From Bdellovibrio bacteriovorus (GTDB lineage Bacteria > Bdellovibrionota > Bdellovibrionia > Bdellovibrionales > Bdellovibrionaceae): 64,000 nucleotides of DNA. Of this stretch, positions 57,101 through 64,000 are shown piece by piece. Below the pieces are notes generated by a model that made no database searches, was not told the origin of the DNA, and saw only the letters and a program-made list of their open reading frames with translations. Position 1 is the first letter of the stretch. The number at the start of each line of letters is the position of its first letter. The stretch spans positions 348,029 to 412,028 of the forward strand of contig NZ_LUKF01000001.1 of NCBI RefSeq assembly GCF_001592755.1. Reading direction: 5' to 3'. The position numbers and the translations under genes are program-made.

Positions 57101-57195
57101 ACTCATTTTAGACAGTCCCACCTAAAGTTCGTCTACTTTCTTGACGATAAAAGATTTGACACTTTTTTCGTCACTGAACTGAAAGGAACGGATTT

Positions 57196-58752
57196 ATGAT
57201 TAATTGGGATGAGTTTGAACATATACATGTGATCAACAAGCTCAAACAGATTCTCAGCGCATGGTGGAACATTGACGTTGTCTTCACTGACGAGCGCGGT
57301 GCTTTGAAAGGTTATGACTCTGATAAAGTCACTTTCAACAATCCTGCTATCACAGCTCTTGTTAAAAAAGAAGCGGGTCAAGCTAGCATTGCTGAGCTAG
57401 TTACAAAATCTTTGGATGATCTTCGCACTTCACAAAATCGCTACAGCCTTCGCAAGTGGGACATGGTTGGTTTCGACACGGGTGTCTTCCCAATCATGAT
57501 CGACAATGACTGTGTGGGTACTGTGGTTGCGATGGGTTTCTTCCGCGACTCAAACTTCACTTCTCGCTTGTCTGAGATTCGTGACCGTTTGGCAGCTTTC
57601 GGCTTGTCTGGCGAAGTTATCGAAAAATGTTTGGGCAAATTGAAATTCTTGGACGATCAAGAACGTGCCCACTTCAGCGAGCTTTGTGAACTGGTTGCTC
57701 AAGAGATCGTGACTCTTCACTTAGAGATTTCTTCTCGTGAAGACCGCATCAAAGAATTGAACAAAGAACTTGGCAATCGTTTTAAATACGACAACATGAT
57801 TGGTAAATCAAAACCAATGCAATCACTGTATGCTCTTTTGGATAAAATCAAAGGCGCGGATTCTACAGTGCTTGTGCAAGGTGAAAACGGTACGGGTAAA
57901 GAGTTGATTGCAAAATCAATCCACTACAACTCAAACCGCAAAGACAAACCTTTCATCATCCAAAACTGTTCTGCATTCAATGACAACCTTTTGGAGTCAG
58001 AACTTTTCGGTCACGTTAAAGGATCGTTCACAGGCGCTCTTAAAGATAAAAAAGGTCTTTTCGAGATGGCTGACAAAGGAACATTCTTCCTGGATGAGAT
58101 CGGTGATACTTCTCCACAAATGCAAGTAAAGCTTCTTCGCGTATTGCAAGAGGGAACATTCACTCCGGTGGGTGCGACTGAGCAAAGAAAAGTCGACGTG
58201 CGTATCGTTGCGGCAACAAACCGCAACTTAAAAGAGATGGTTGAACAAGGTACTTTCCGTGAAGACTTGTACTACCGCTTGAATGTTATCAACATCCGCG
58301 TTCCGCCTCTTCGTGAAAGAAAAGAAGATATTCCATTCCTAGTGGATTTCTTCTTGGGTAAAATCCACGATCAACAAGGCGGACCAAAACGTCAGATCAC
58401 AAAACGTGCTTTGGAAAAACTGTATGATTATCCATGGCCAGGTAACGTGCGTGAATTGCAAAATGAAATCGAAAGACTTTGTGTTCTTTCCGGCGACGAA
58501 ACAAAATTGATGGCAGAATTGCTTTCTCCAAAAGTTTTGGAAGCTGGCGAAAAGAACAAGGTTCAAGGTTCTCGTTTGCAAGGTAAGTTAAAAGATGCGT
58601 TGGAAGATCTAGAGCGCGAAATGATCCGTGAAGGTCTTCGCCGCACAGGTTGGAACAAATCCAAACTTGCTAAAGAATTGGGTATCAGCCGCGCTGGTCT
58701 TATCATGAAAGTTGAAAAATACGGTCTTGATAAACGTAAGCTTGCTCGCTAA
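57196..58752 (+). CDS. Sigma-54-dependent NtrC-type activator
   Basis: A 518-aa activator. An N-terminal sensor-like domain (about 1-165; GAF- or PocR-like, shared with the gene at 59019) leads to a helical linker, the AAA+ domain (about 205-440) with Walker A GENGTGKE and sigma-54 contact loop GSFTGA (276-281), and a C-terminal Fis helix-turn-helix (about 470-515). The loop has Ser where Ala is usual. It needs RpoN, not in this window. AAAGGAACGGA precedes the ATG. It ends at a terminator. Confidence 0.92.
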   Translation: MINWDEFEHIHVINKLKQILSAWWNIDVVFTDERGALKGYDSDKVTFNNPAITALVKKEAGQASIAELVTKSLDDLRTSQNRYSLRKWDMVGFDTGVFPIMIDNDCVGTVVAMGFFRDSNFTSRLSEIRDRLAAFGLSGEVIEKCLGKLKFLDDQERAHFSELCELVAQEIVTLHLEISSREDRIKELNKELGNRFKYDNMIGKSKPMQSLYALLDKIKGADSTVLVQGENGTGKELIAKSIHYNSNRKDKPFIIQNCSAFNDNLLESELFGHVKGSFTGALKDKKGLFEMADKGTFFLDEIGDTSPQMQVKLLRVLQEGTFTPVGATEQRKVDVRIVAATNRNLKEMVEQGTFREDLYYRLNVINIRVPPLRERKEDIPFLVDFFLGKIHDQQGGPKRQITKRALEKLYDYPWPGNVRELQNEIERLCVLSGDETKLMAELLSPKVLEAGEKNKVQGSRLQGKLKDALEDLEREMIREGLRRTGWNKSKLAKELGISRAGLIMKVEKYGLDKRKLAR

Positions 58753-58774: not shown

Positions 58775-58806
58775 AAAAAGGGCTCTGCTAAAAACAGAGT
58801 CCTTTT
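58775..58806 (+). terminator. Terminator of the sigma-54 activator gene
   Basis: Stem AAAAGGGCTCTG / CAGAGTCCTTTT with one G-T pair and a CTAAAAA loop, then T-rich DNA. Confidence 0.85.
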
Positions 58807-58969
58807 CTTTTCTGAAACGACAGTGACACTCCCCGCACCCACCCTAAATATTTTACTGGTATGATCGAAACTTAGCGGGTTTTAAGACCTCTTTTTGCCG
58901 CCATTTTTTTAATCACCTTGATAACTTAAGCCCACGAAATTACGGGCAAATCACCTGAGCGCCAAAACT

Positions 58970-58985
58970 TGGCACTAGTCTTGTA
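58970..58985 (+). promoter_or_regulatory. Candidate sigma-54 promoter
   Basis: TGGCAC-N5-TTGTA with GG and GT ten bases apart. It matches the -24/-12 consensus except that the -12 C is T. The predicted RNA start (about 58996) lies after an in-frame ATG at 58989 and before AAGGGGT and the ATG at 59019. The previous gene is a sigma-54 activator. Confidence 0.5.
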
Positions 58986-59018
58986 TTAATGGATTTTGAG
59001 TGTAAGGGGTACGTGGGT

Positions 59019-59888
59019 ATGCAGAACTCAACATTGGATAGCTCATTCGTAAATCGATTGAAGCAAATTCTCGCCAGCCGCTATGGGAAGGGTTTACAGG
59101 TTCGTCAGTTGATGGATCTGGCAGAGCTTAGTGCGGAAGATGTGTTCACGCGGGGGCGTGATCTTCACATTCCGATTCGTGTGAACGGATCTATCTTAGG
59201 AACAGCCGTTGTTCCTTCCGCCGATGATCTCAACGCAGAAAAGCGTCAAGGGGTGGCGCAGTTAGTACGCATGGTTTTAGAACCTGCGATGTACAAGTGG
59301 TACCTCGATCAAAAAGAGTCGAATCTTTTAGAACTCAGCAAAGCCAACCTGACTTTGGATAACGTGGCTTTGTTTGGCGAAGATCCTTTGCCATCTATTG
59401 ATGAGATTTTAAGTGATACCGAATTAGACCTCAACGAAGGTCTAGCTACGGAACTGATTTCTCAGCTTATCCATCTTGAAGGTCGTTCTGAAAATACAAA
59501 TAAGAAAGTCGCTCTTCAACTTCACGAAATCACGGGACGCTGGGCTTTTGTTCCTTTCAACGATATCAAAGGGCAGCTGCACTCTGCGCAAGACATTGCG
59601 AAAATGGGTGCGATGACAATCTTTGTAGAGAATGTTGAGAAGCTAAATGCGGCTGAACAAGAACTCTTGATGGATTACATCGCTGAAGAGCGCTCTTCAG
59701 AAGAGCCTCTATTAATTACGAGTTCCGCAGTCACTTTGGACGAGCTGACTCGCTCTGATTTGGCCTCAGATCTTGTCGACGAACTTTCCGTGAACTGTTT
59801 TGAAGTGGACCGTGCTCCTCTGACGACTCAGGGTCTTAAGGAAGTCCTGGAACTCTTTTTTATGAAAGATTCCACGATCGACGCCTAA
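59019..59888 (+). CDS. Degenerate paralogue of the sigma-54 activator
   Basis: A 289-aa protein. Its N-terminus aligns by eye with the sensor of the upstream activator (NRLKQILASRYGKGLQV versus NKLKQILSAWWNIDVVF; then PI...GT). The middle mirrors the AAA+ core, but the Walker A site reads EGRSENTNKK, the region of the GAFTGA loop is shortened (IKGQLHSAQDIAKMGAM), and Walker B is IFVENVEKL. It ends at the point where the Fis domain would begin, so it has no DNA-binding part. ATP use is unlikely. A co-regulator or anti-activator role is inferred. AAGGGG precedes the chosen start. Confidence 0.7.
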   Translation: MQNSTLDSSFVNRLKQILASRYGKGLQVRQLMDLAELSAEDVFTRGRDLHIPIRVNGSILGTAVVPSADDLNAEKRQGVAQLVRMVLEPAMYKWYLDQKESNLLELSKANLTLDNVALFGEDPLPSIDEILSDTELDLNEGLATELISQLIHLEGRSENTNKKVALQLHEITGRWAFVPFNDIKGQLHSAQDIAKMGAMTIFVENVEKLNAAEQELLMDYIAEERSSEEPLLITSSAVTLDELTRSDLASDLVDELSVNCFEVDRAPLTTQGLKEVLELFFMKDSTIDA

Positions 59889-59935
59889 AAGTTTAGTTCT
59901 TGATAATCATCTGAGTGTCTGTGAGAATTTTTCTT

Positions 59936-60955
59936 ATGGTCACTCATGATGAATACTTAGTTCCATTTCTTTCTCGCTCGCTGCAAAGCGATTCCTATAA
60001 AGTCTTCTCTTTAGCTGGAGATGCTTCCAACCGTCGTTATTACCGCGTGGTTCTGGACAATCAATCATGGGTCCTCATGCGTTGGGAACCTTTTCAGCCC
60101 GACAACTATCCGTTCTTAAGCGTCCTAAATCATTTTGCTAAAAACGGAGTTCACGTACCTCAGGTTGTTTCCATGTCCCCTGAAGAGGGATTGGTTCTTC
60201 TGGAAGATCTAGGTGATCTCACTTTGGAAAGAAAGTTCTGGGAAAGCCAGCATCAAGAAGCCTCGATGGACTTTTATCAGATGGCCGTTGATGAGATCGT
60301 AAAGATTCATCACCCAGCAACTTTGAATAAATCGGACTGCACGGCTTTTAAAATCGAATTCAATACTGAGAAGTTCTTGTGGGAAATGAACTATGGTAAG
60401 GACAACCTTATCCATGGTGTTCTGAAGTTTTCATTCAACGAAAAGCTACAAAAAGAAATCTCTGATATCTTTTTAGATGTCTGCACGCGTTTGGATAAAG
60501 AGCCTAAGCGCATTGCTCATCGCGATTATCATTCTCGCAACCTGATGATTAAGTTGGATCAAATGAGCGTGATTGATTTCCAAGACGCACGCTTGGGCCC
60601 AATTCAATATGACCTTGTCAGCCTGATGCGCGATTCTTACGTCGACATGAACGACGAAATGGCGAATAAACTTATTAATTATTACTTGGACCAATCAAAG
60701 CAATATCTGCCTAAAGATTTCTCGCGCGAACATTTTGATCGCATCTATGAGCTTCAATCGATTCAACGTTGCTTCAAAGCTTGTGGAAGTTTCGCTAGCT
60801 TCTTCCACTTGCGCCAAGACCGCCGTTACTTGAAATATCTTTCAGGAACTCTTCGTCGTGTGATGAAAGCGATCAATGAATTCCCAGAATACAAAACATT
60901 TGCGGATGTCTTAATTGATTCTGGCGCATTGGAAAGAAAGTACGAATCACTATGA
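59936..60955 (+). CDS. amgK: AmgK-like sugar kinase (APH fold)
   Basis: A 339-aa aminoglycoside-phosphotransferase-fold kinase with the Brenner motif HRDYHSRN and metal-binding IDFQDAR. Its closest pattern is AmgK, which phosphorylates MurNAc or GlcNAc at the anomeric carbon in peptidoglycan recycling. The adjacent nucleotidyltransferase gene (overlap of four bases) is the MurU-type partner. In a predator this could salvage prey wall sugars. The start at 59936 is preferred to a GTG at 59915. Substrate is inferred from the pair. Confidence 0.8.
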   Translation: MVTHDEYLVPFLSRSLQSDSYKVFSLAGDASNRRYYRVVLDNQSWVLMRWEPFQPDNYPFLSVLNHFAKNGVHVPQVVSMSPEEGLVLLEDLGDLTLERKFWESQHQEASMDFYQMAVDEIVKIHHPATLNKSDCTAFKIEFNTEKFLWEMNYGKDNLIHGVLKFSFNEKLQKEISDIFLDVCTRLDKEPKRIAHRDYHSRNLMIKLDQMSVIDFQDARLGPIQYDLVSLMRDSYVDMNDEMANKLINYYLDQSKQYLPKDFSREHFDRIYELQSIQRCFKACGSFASFFHLRQDRRYLKYLSGTLRRVMKAINEFPEYKTFADVLIDSGALERKYESL

Positions 60956-61956
60956 ATGTGATGTTGCTCGCGGCGGGCGAAGGCACTCGTCTTCGCCCCT
61001 ATACCACTATTTTACCTAAGCCCGCGATTCCGTTTCTAACGATTCCCTTGGCAGCTCACTCGTTAGGTTTTCTGCGAGAAATTAGTATTGAGAAGCTCGT
61101 GGTGAATACTTATCACCTGCCAAAGAAAATCCACGAACTTTTCCACAGACTTCCACACAAAGCAAAGAGCCTGCATTTTTCTAACGAAGTCGGAGCCATT
61201 CTTGGCAGTGGTGGTGGGTTGGGTAAAGCTCGCGAGCACTTTAAAGGTGGCGGCGACTTTATTATGATGAACGCAGATGAAGTCATTCTTCCGCAAGATT
61301 CGGGCGTTCTTAATAAAGCCATTTCTTTGCACTCCCAATCGAAAGCCATCGCGACATTGATGGTGATGGATCATCCAGGAGTTGGAACCCAGTTTGGCGG
61401 CGTCTGGACAGATGCTAACAACAACGTGTTAGGTTTTGGAAAGCAACCCATTCCCGGAAGCGTGAAGGCTTGGCACTTTGTAGGTGTTCAAATTCTTTCT
61501 GAAGAAGTATTTTCGTTTATTCCATTAGAGGGTGAATCCAACATTCTTTATGATGCTTTGACCGTCGCTATTCAGAAAGGTCACATCGTCAAAGTCTTTC
61601 CGTTTCAATGCAGTTGGTTTGAAACAGGAAATCCCGGGGACTTTCTGGAAGCCAGCCGAAAATGTTTTTCTTATTTGGCAGCGACGGAAGATTCTTTTCA
61701 AAAGAAAGCGTTAAACGCAAATATTCAAGACTATGCTCCAAAACCGGTTCATGTGACTTCTGAATTTGGCGGACAAAGAGTCATTTCTGAAGGTGCAAAG
61801 ATTGATATCTCTTCAAAGATTCAAGGTCTTTTCTGTATTGGAAGTGGAAGCTCCGTCGCGTCGGGTTGTCAGTTAGAAAATGTGATTGTTGGCGACGGCG
61901 TTCAAGTCAGCGCCGGAACTCAGATCGCAAATACTTTGTTACTCGAGAGTATTTAA
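60952..61956 (+). CDS. murU: MurU-like nucleotidyltransferase
   Basis: A 334-aa sugar-1-phosphate nucleotidyltransferase. The N-terminal motif LAAGEGTRLRPYT and LPKPAIPF are those of NDP-sugar pyrophosphorylases. MurU turns MurNAc-1-phosphate into UDP-MurNAc. The protein is about 110 residues longer than Pseudomonas MurU, and the extra C-terminus is a left-handed beta-helix-like tail (GAKIDISSKIQGLFCIGSG). So a different sugar is possible, but the coupling to the AmgK-like gene favours MurU. It ends at a strong terminator. Confidence 0.75.
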   Translation: MNVMLLAAGEGTRLRPYTTILPKPAIPFLTIPLAAHSLGFLREISIEKLVVNTYHLPKKIHELFHRLPHKAKSLHFSNEVGAILGSGGGLGKAREHFKGGGDFIMMNADEVILPQDSGVLNKAISLHSQSKAIATLMVMDHPGVGTQFGGVWTDANNNVLGFGKQPIPGSVKAWHFVGVQILSEEVFSFIPLEGESNILYDALTVAIQKGHIVKVFPFQCSWFETGNPGDFLEASRKCFSYLAATEDSFQKKALNANIQDYAPKPVHVTSEFGGQRVISEGAKIDISSKIQGLFCIGSGSSVASGCQLENVIVGDGVQVSAGTQIANTLLLESI

Positions 61957-61957
61957 A

Positions 61958-61996
61958 ATAAAAAAACGGTGCTTATTCAGAGCACCGTTTTTTTAT
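61958..61996. terminator. Bidirectional terminator
   Basis: Stem AAAAAAACGGTGCT / AGCACCGTTTTTTT with a TATTCAG loop, right after the murU-like stop. It faces the convergent gene at 62013. Confidence 0.9.
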
Positions 61997-62012
61997 TTTT
62001 GATTTTCTTCAT

Positions 62013-63047
62013 TTATTTTTGCAGTGCTAATTCCGCATCCGTGAAGAAAGACTCTTGGCTTTCTTTCACTTTATATCTTCGAGTCATCATCAAGAAGATA
62101 CTGTCAGCAGCGACACCGATCGGTTCACCGTTATAATTTTTCTGCATACCCGCAAGACTTGATGGATCACGATCTAAAGCACCACGACCGGCACCGTCAG
62201 CGCTCGCGTAAGCTCCGCCCCCTGTGCTGTCGTCTGTTGAATCCGAAGGCCCGGAGCCAGAAACACCTCCGCCACCGCCTTCTTCAAAGCCGTTCGCTGC
62301 CGTTTTAGAACCGATTTTTAGCTTTTCCATTTTCTCTGCGGCTTTTTTCTCGATGGCACCTGCTAGTGACATCAAACCATCAATTGCGCCGGAAGGAATT
62401 CCAGCTGCTGCCATAGACTCTTTGGAAGAGAAGTCAGAGAGTTTATAGGTTTTATCTCCGATCTTCGCCGTTCCTTTTTTGGCATCGATAATGCCCATGT
62501 TTTCAAGTTTCTTAATGTTGTTTGCCGCTGCGGCAGTGTGAGGATCCTTAGCCGTTTCACCTAGATCACTCGGATCATAAGTTCCACCGCCGGTGTTTAA
62601 ATCTCCAAGACCATCCGTATCAAAGCCTGTTAGACCGGCCATATTTGCAGAATTACCGTGGGACTTACCTTGCTTCATAGAAAGAAGACCCAACATCACT
62701 TCCATCACACCTTTTGCAATTAAGGCGCTACAAGGAGATGGAGAACAAGCTGTACCCGCCTGAATATCGGCAGCTCCCATTGCGATAAACATACCGCCCG
62801 TAAGGAAAGACATGGCCTTACCATCGCTGTTTGAATCCTTGGTCTGGTCGGCAGAATTATTTACGGAAGGCTGTCCACCACCCGTTGTTTCAATACCGTT
62901 TGAAGCACCAGAGGTAGTTTTAGTTCCGGTACCTGGTCCCTTTTGCGTTGCCGCAGAGGGAGTTACAGTTGCCGCACCACCGAAGGCAAAATTCGACGAG
63001 AGCCCGACACTTAATGCACAGATGTATTTTAAGAATGTTTGAGTCAT
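62013..63047 (-). CDS. Glycine-rich exported protein
   Basis: A 344-aa protein with a signal peptide (about 1-23, ending AFG). It is rich in Gly, Ser, Ala, Thr and Asp, with a helical cysteine pair (ACSPSPCSALI) and an alternating hydrophobic section at about 80-125. A second part (about 240-285) is GGGGGVSGSG-like. The end is a short charged helix. No domain is recognised. It lies nine bases after the gene at 63057, so the two form an operon. It could be a surface or filament protein. Confidence 0.75.
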   Translation of the reverse strand: MTQTFLKYICALSVGLSSNFAFGGAATVTPSAATQKGPGTGTKTTSGASNGIETTGGGQPSVNNSADQTKDSNSDGKAMSFLTGGMFIAMGAADIQAGTACSPSPCSALIAKGVMEVMLGLLSMKQGKSHGNSANMAGLTGFDTDGLGDLNTGGGTYDPSDLGETAKDPHTAAAANNIKKLENMGIIDAKKGTAKIGDKTYKLSDFSSKESMAAAGIPSGAIDGLMSLAGAIEKKAAEKMEKLKIGSKTAANGFEEGGGGGVSGSGPSDSTDDSTGGGAYASADGAGRGALDRDPSSLAGMQKNYNGEPIGVAADSIFLMMTRRYKVKESQESFFTDAELALQK

Positions 63048-63056
63048 TCGTGCCCC

Positions 63057-64000
63057 CTAGTTATTTAACAGAGTGTTTTTATTATCGCGGTAGCGCTCTT
63101 TGACTTTTTCCCAGTTGGATTTACCACCCTGGCCAGTCACTTCGTTTTTCCAAGCTTGCTGTTGCCCTGCAACACCTTTGCTTGGATCTTTCGCTCCACC
63201 TGGAAGGTAGGCGCGATATTTATCTCCGCCGCCACCACCGAAGCTGCCGAAGCCACCGCCTCCGCCGCCACCACCAGTGCCGCCAAGAATATTTGCATCA
63301 AGACCTTTTGCTGCCGCCTCAGAAGGTTTATCGCCGCTGGCACTGATACCACCGCCGCCACCTAAACCTGCGCCACCGCCTGAAGGTGCGCCAGGCATAC
63401 CACCACTGTCACCGCCGCTACCGCTTGCTCCACCTGTTGGTGAATCAAGACCTGGAATGCTTCCGCCGCCAAGACCGGCAACACTGCGGTCACCTGAGAT
63501 ATTTGATTTATCAGTCGAACCTGTTCCTACGCCACCCGCGACAGAACTTTCACCTGGCTTTTCGTAGTTGTTAGAACAACCCGGAGTTCTGGGATTTGCC
63601 AAACAAATACACTCTGGCAAATTTGCATTGGCAGCGACTTTACATTTTTCTTCAGTGGATGCTGTTGTGGTTGGAGTTGTACTACCACTTGTATCTTCGT
63701 CACACTTCTGACCTTGCTTCATTGAATTTGCAAGAGACATAATACCCGCTCCTGCTGAAGCTAAAAGCTGAGCGTACTTGCCAGTGCAAAGACTGACCTT
63801 TCCAGAGATCGAGCGTTTGTCACCCTTCTCTTGCTCTTGTTTCACATATTGCATGATATTTTTTAGGTCATTGTGATAAGAGGCTTTATACGATTCACAT
63901 AATTGAGTTTGTCCAGGATTAGGGTTGGGAGCACACTGCGCACTTTTTTCTGCAGCCGCCGCATACTTTTGCATATCCTCTAAGCCTGAACGGGCTTTTA
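63057..64000 (-). CDS. Glycine-rich protein, 5' end outside window
   Basis: At least 305 aa are visible. The frame stays open upstream of the ATG at 63974 to the window edge, and no signal peptide or good ribosome-binding site is seen, so the true start probably lies beyond. The N-terminal part has cysteine pairs (AQCAPNP, KCKVAANANLPECIC) and helices. The middle is very rich in glycine (GSGGDSGGMPGAP, GGGGGGGFGSFGGGGG). The tail is charged. It shares MKQG and glycine-rich style with the next gene. Function is unknown. Confidence 0.7.
   Translation of the reverse strand, partial: KARSGLEDMQKYAAAAEKSAQCAPNPNPGQTQLCESYKASYHNDLKNIMQYVKQEQEKGDKRSISGKVSLCTGKYAQLLASAGAGIMSLANSMKQGQKCDEDTSGSTTPTTTASTEEKCKVAANANLPECICLANPRTPGCSNNYEKPGESSVAGGVGTGSTDKSNISGDRSVAGLGGGSIPGLDSPTGGASGSGGDSGGMPGAPSGGGAGLGGGGGISASGDKPSEAAAKGLDANILGGTGGGGGGGGFGSFGGGGGDKYRAYLPGGAKDPSKGVAGQQQAWKNEVTGQGGKSNWEKVKERYRDNKNTLLNN

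Follow-up and report, generated by a model that had tools for sequence, protein, structure and literature searches.

Introduction

The kinase AmgK and the nucleotidyltransferase MurU rebuild UDP-MurNAc from recycled MurNAc. Transcription by RNA polymerase carrying sigma-54 uses promoters with the canonical consensus TGGCAC-N5-TTGCW, in which GG and GC dinucleotides lie 10 bp apart. The anabolic recycling of MurNAc in Pseudomonas runs through AnmK, MupP, AmgK and MurU (PMC5371407). No report of AmgK-MurU recycling under sigma-54 control was found in the open papers that we searched.

Here we describe a locus of Bdellovibrio bacteriovorus in which genes for an AmgK-like kinase and a MurU-like transferase follow an activator and an activator-like protein, the pseudo-activator. 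The whole stretch of DNA analysed, 64,000 nucleotides, is referred to as the window. The locus probably constitutes a dedicated sigma-54 switch, made up of activator, enhancer and pseudo-activator, for anabolic MurNAc recycling fed by NamZ and NagZ. As a conserved module it makes testable how a predator couples the salvage of wall sugars to its life cycle.

Gene organization of the locus

The features of the locus are collected in Table 1. A preliminary description of the region had listed a 47-base gap, a 4-base overlap and a strong terminator after the MurU-like gene, and all of these are borne out in the window: 47 bases separate the pseudo-activator gene from the kinase gene, and the kinase and murU-like genes share the ATGA at 60952-60955. 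The block of activator, pseudo-activator, AmgK-like and MurU-like genes is conserved across the class, with the activator gene adjoining the operon in nearly all loci. The genome itself (3.66 Mb) encodes a single RpoN.

Table 1. Positions of genes and of predicted regulatory features in the window
Feature	Position	Strand	Remarks
FliA (sigma-28)-like promoter of activator gene, TAAAG-N16-ACGATA	57123-57149	+	conserved in class
Sigma-54 activator gene	57196-58752	+	upstream of operon
Intrinsic terminator 3' of activator gene	58776-58806	+	12-pair stem and T tail
Candidate enhancer (UAS), CCTAAA-N4-TTAC-N5-TGA-N-C-N-AAA-N2-TAG	58843-58875	+	phased 5' of -24 element
Predicted sigma-54 -24/-12 promoter, TGGCACTAGTCTTGTA	58970-58985	+	motif match and class-wide conservation
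Pseudo-activator gene	59019-59888	+	first gene of operon
AmgK-like anomeric sugar kinase gene	59936-60955	+	ATG at 59936
MurU-like sugar-1-phosphate nucleotidylyltransferase gene	60952-61956	+	stop at 61956
Operon terminator	61955-61999	+	20-pair hairpin and T tail, -23.0 kcal/mol

The activator

The activator consists of a GAF-like N-terminal domain, an intact AAA+ domain and a Fis-type HTH (Pfam matches Sigma54_activat, 2e-71, AAA_lid_14 and HTH_8). Its translation contains the motifs GENGTGKE, GSFTGA and FLDEIGD, which are retained in relatives, so that the AAA+ domain with Walker A, Walker B and GAFTGA that characterizes bacterial enhancer-binding proteins is present; none of the curated NCBIfam activator families fits the protein. 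The predicted structure of the N-terminal 190 residues has a pLDDT of 90, and the top structural matches of the model include GAF-type domains of IclR, CodY and DhaR (Z 9-10). Foldseek alone gave no match below E 0.001 for this sensor domain.

A FliA-like promoter, T[ACT]AAG-N15/16-ACGAT, precedes the activator gene at almost every locus of the class. A strict pattern that excludes the TTAAG form was found at 39 of 56 loci, whereas 1.2% of random stretches of 150 bp contain it; of the 17 loci without a match, most have the TTAAG form. The published consensus of Bdellovibrio attack-phase promoters is TTAAG-N16-CCGATA (PMC3627812), with which the promoter in the window shares 9 of 11 bases at exact spacing. 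Within the activator promoter lies an inverted repeat, TCGTC-N9-GACGA (57128-57149), that is retained in many relatives and may bind a further regulator.

The proposal that the upstream activator drives the operon holds up insofar as the protein is intact, adjacent and accompanied by a phased candidate enhancer through which it would act. A possible but doubtful alternative is that the activator is a wider regulator, for which the phased element and the -24/-12 site are one target among many. It has its own FliA-like promoter and is far more conserved than the operon genes, its identity being mostly 92-99% in the genus. However, the locus itself is the best match to the enhancer core in its own genome, and seven of the eight genomes searched have their sole exact core match at the locus. 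One further match recurs, inside rplV; being within coding sequence, it was rejected as a real site.

The kinase, the transferase and their neighbours

The best family for the kinase is NCBIfam AmgK (NF045759), which it matches over its full length with a score of 142 bits (1.7e-41) that does not reach the cut-off of 550 bits. The segments GDAS, HRDYHSRN and DFQDAR are invariant among 17 sequences and contain the HxDxxxxN and DFxD motifs of APH-fold kinases. The transferase falls short of the curated MurU model (NF045761; 78 bits against a cut-off of 250) and scores higher to Arch_glmU (91 bits) and to mannose-1-P guanylyltransferase models. Its Pfam family is NTP_transferase, its PDB profile matches include MurU (4y7t and 8hhd), and the nucleotidyltransferase signature GEGTRxRP and the lysine of PKP are invariant among 15 sequences; the gene adjoins amgK, and the protein has an extra C-terminal hexapeptide-like segment. 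The names AmgK-like and MurU-like reflect that neither protein passes its curated model. The two genes adjoin each other at every locus compared for gene neighbourhood, and an AmgK-like gene is present in 275 of 291 genomes of the phylum.

The neighbouring genes point to the salvage of MurNAc. A gene for AnmK, found in 68 of the 291 phylum genomes, lies directly 3' of murU in convergent orientation at 18 phylum loci from several groups; AnmK was found in none of the 24 genomes of the genus. NamZ, in turn, is present in 22 of these 24, and in seven genomes its gene stands next to murU, in the slot of AnmK (e.g. L040:2797-3990 (-) and L207:10516-11631 (+)). It is co-directional with murU in four of them, including the one that we take to be B. 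bacteriovorus HD100 (G003), and convergent in three. This exchange of AnmK for NamZ at one locus suggests a source of free MurNAc in Bdellovibrio, which has no AnmK. Both NamZ domains are present in the protein encoded by namZ, which, as judged by eye, has no evident signal peptide. Where namZ sits elsewhere, no sigma-54 site was found 5' of it. A NagZ-type GH3 gene, above its curated cut-off, is located 6 kb 3' of murU, just outside the window, and AmpG is above its cut-off in the same genome. MurQ was not found above its cut-off; the candidates were short sub-threshold matches, mostly inside longer proteins, and were rejected.

With AnmK, NamZ and NagZ as neighbours, the role in MurNAc salvage that the preliminary description had suggested gains support, and MurNAc would be the substrate of the kinase. 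It is unlikely that the promoter and activator work as described while the enzymes make another activated sugar, e.g. from GlcNAc-1-P or hexose-1-P for an envelope polysaccharide. The better scores of the transferase to Arch_glmU and mannose-1-P guanylyltransferases and its extra C-terminal segment, which MurU lacks, speak for such a reading, but AmgK is the best match of the kinase along the entire protein, AnmK or NamZ adjoins in 25 loci, and NagZ is nearby.

Distribution of the module

The module is kept across families of the class and in G043, presumably the epibiotic predator Pseudobdellovibrio exovorus JSS, and hence does not appear to be tied to growth inside prey. The suggestion that the operon responds to breakdown products of the prey wall thus finds no support. 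The protein Bd0152 of HD100, annotated as a muramidase, was reported to be missing from epibiotic predators (PMC11656739). Judging from gene order, Bd0152 would be NamZ, which, unlike the module, may therefore be tied to growth inside prey.

In other classes of the phylum, the AmgK-MurU pair stands at seven loci (L165-L169, L175, L176) with neither activator nor pseudo-activator nearby. Sigma-54 control therefore appears to have been added in the class to which Bdellovibrio belongs.

On the opposite strand 3' of the operon (window 62013-63998 (-) and L207:5586-9512 (-)) there are genes for two secreted-looking glycine-rich proteins and a TadE/G-like protein. The two glycine-rich proteins are also encoded in G003 and, by gene order, may be Bd0149 and Bd0150; mutants in Bd0150 were reported to be defective in predation (PMC6561027).

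The upstream element

A 33-bp block begins 126-127 bp 5' of the -24 element, about 12 helical turns, in 22 of the 24 genus genomes, and at 125 and 114 bp in the other two. Within the genus, block and promoter have median identities of 74% and 75%, as against 45% in the spacer between them. The distance from the activator stop codon to the block ranges from 13 to 1101 bp, and the terminator hairpin precedes the block in some species and lies inside the spacer in others, with the length between block and promoter still kept. Because this spacing is fixed despite a diverged spacer and variable outer distances, we regard the block as the best candidate for the enhancer of the activator, which would bind there.

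At two loci (L012 and L017), about 1.1 kb and 0.55 kb of extra DNA separate the activator gene from the block, and the distance from block to promoter stays at 127 bp. At L060 (G013) the operon retains both the phased element and the -24/-12 site with no activator gene closer than 4 kb, a layout which suggests that the activator acts in trans. The spacer of the window (about 58920-58945) and those of relatives share a second block, CTAA-N4/5-TGAAAT, which is weaker and lies about 40-45 bp 5' of the -24 element; it may be a second activator site or the site of a bending protein.

Beyond the genus, the 33-bp block can be clearly recognized in just one other genus (G034). When the enhancer was sought there by unsupervised motif discovery, nothing but the T-runs of terminators emerged outside the genus. 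The genus profile gave a good score only in G034 (L034), at -124, and a moderate one in L138, at -147; seven of the 33 best profile hits fell at -121 to -128 (binomial 4e-6, for a range picked after looking).

There is a small chance that the block is instead a FliA-type promoter of a short RNA. It contains CTAAA-N16-TCGAAA, which resembles TTAAG-N16-CCGATA, and a terminator hairpin follows it directly in several species. Against this, its distance to the -24 element is fixed, the internal bases TTAC are conserved to the same degree as its ends, several species no longer have the CGA, and no attack-phase small RNA of HD100 near 141 kb appears in Table 2 of PMC3627812.

The predicted -24/-12 promoter

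The string TGGCAC-N5-TTGTA, singled out in the preliminary description, is present between the block and the operon as the sole zero-mismatch match in the window. TGGCACTAGTCTTGTA differs from the canonical form by one mismatch, C to T at -12; the GG and the spacing fit the consensus, and the -12 dinucleotide is GT in the window and the genus and GC in many relatives. When two mismatches are allowed, the pattern is as frequent in the window as in shuffled sequence. In the whole genome there are 5 sites of TGGCAY-N5-TTGTA versus 4 for the reversed control, and 8 of TGGCAC-N5-TTGCW versus 2. Taken alone, the promoter string is weak evidence.

Its conservation argues for a real promoter beyond chance. 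A -24/-12 element lies 5' of the start codon of the first gene at all 30 family loci; its GG, A, TG and A are identical in every one of them, and the -12 region is TTGTA in most. In other families of the class, an element scoring at least 16, a score reached by 9% of control stretches, occupies this position upstream of the orthologous operon at 28 of 29 loci, about half of them with the TTGC form. Given this form in relatives, the -12 T seems to have arisen from a canonical sigma-54 site by a change specific to the lineage. The distance from promoter to start codon varies from 45 to 100 bp in the genus. The class-wide footprint thus bears out the sigma-54 promoter proposed earlier, on which transcription by sigma-54 would depend; its position predicts a start at about 58996, in agreement with the earlier expectation. 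It is very improbable that the string arose by chance and that a sigma-70 promoter or read-through from the activator gene drives the operon: the TTGT at -12, the chance frequency of two-mismatch matches and 9-of-12 sigma-70-like matches in the region are outweighed by the class-wide invariance, the canonical forms in relatives and the fixed spacing to the upstream element, and read-through is limited by the terminator behind the activator gene, while the sigma-70-like matches occur at shuffled frequency.

The pseudo-activator

The first gene of the operon encodes a GAF-like domain and an AAA+ core, in which alignment shows no Walker A lysine, GAFTGA loop or Walker B DE, and no HTH follows; the protein is thus not an enhancer-binding protein as defined by Walker A, GAFTGA and HTH. 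Its only Pfam match is a weak, sub-threshold one to Sigma54_activ_2 (5e-5), and the model of its AAA+ core matches FleQ, NtrC1 and MuB (Z about 11). Orthologues occur in 60 of 66 family genomes, and the dN/dS of 0.02-0.07 makes a pseudogene unlikely. A longer relative (L140, from G093) retains the lid and the HTH, which supports descent from an activator. Direct profile comparison with the neighbouring activator gave no link (hhalign probability <3%), and the term paralogue therefore rests on the fold and the L140 form. The "degenerate paralogue" of the preliminary description is a conserved pseudo-ATPase rather than a decayed gene. Identity with Bd0149, which is mutated in host-independent strains, was rejected because codon 256 does not fit.

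Since the pseudo-activator is encoded at the head of the operon that the neighbouring activator presumably switches on, its most likely role, although this is a guess, is to form mixed complexes with the activator and to act as feedback. In this protein, nature provides an example of an AAA+ activator's partner that is catalytically dead.

Proposed mechanism

We propose that the FliA-like promoter supplies the activator, which would bind the enhancer 126-127 bp 5' of the -24 element. A signal received by the GAF-like domain would then allow the AAA+ ring to open the RNA polymerase-sigma-54 complex at the promoter, and pseudo-activator made from the operon transcript would probably tune the activator by mixed assembly. 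The AmgK-like kinase would convert MurNAc to MurNAc-1-P, from which the MurU-like enzyme would form UDP-MurNAc. NamZ and NagZ, in place of AnmK, would provide the free MurNAc in Bdellovibrio, and MupP would not be needed. Observations that speak against a sigma-54 switch are the TTGT instead of TTGC at -12 in the genus, the scores of both enzymes below the AmgK and MurU cut-offs, the mostly genus-limited enhancer and the activator gene of G013, which does not adjoin the operon.

More tentatively, and with the odds against it, a class-wide circuit from FliA through a GAF-type activator to sigma-54 might ready the salvage of wall sugars for the time when swimming cells turn to growth, with the co-transcribed pseudo-ATPase as a built-in brake or co-sensor and NamZ replacing AnmK in a lineage that digests the prey wall from inside.

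Comparison with known systems

Like the recycling pathway of Pseudomonas, the locus has an adjacent kinase and nucleotidyltransferase predicted to convert MurNAc to UDP-MurNAc, and MurQ is likewise not found. Bdellovibrio differs in having NamZ and no AnmK, in the sigma-54 activator and pseudo-activator ahead of the pair, and in the C-terminal extension of its MurU-like enzyme. The activator resembles those of the NifA/NorR/DhaR type in its GAF-like domain, its AAA+ domain with a GAFTGA-type loop and its Fis-type HTH, as well as in the adjacent -24/-12 promoter and the upstream enhancer-like element; it differs from them in the co-encoded pseudo-ATPase relative and in belonging to no curated NCBIfam activator family. 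Two activator-like proteins per sigma-54 system are also found among paralogous or heteromeric activators, e.g. the Azotobacter paralogues (PMC9542535). Unlike these, the second Bdellovibrio protein no longer has Walker A, a GAFTGA loop or an HTH, and could therefore act only as a partner or an inhibitor.
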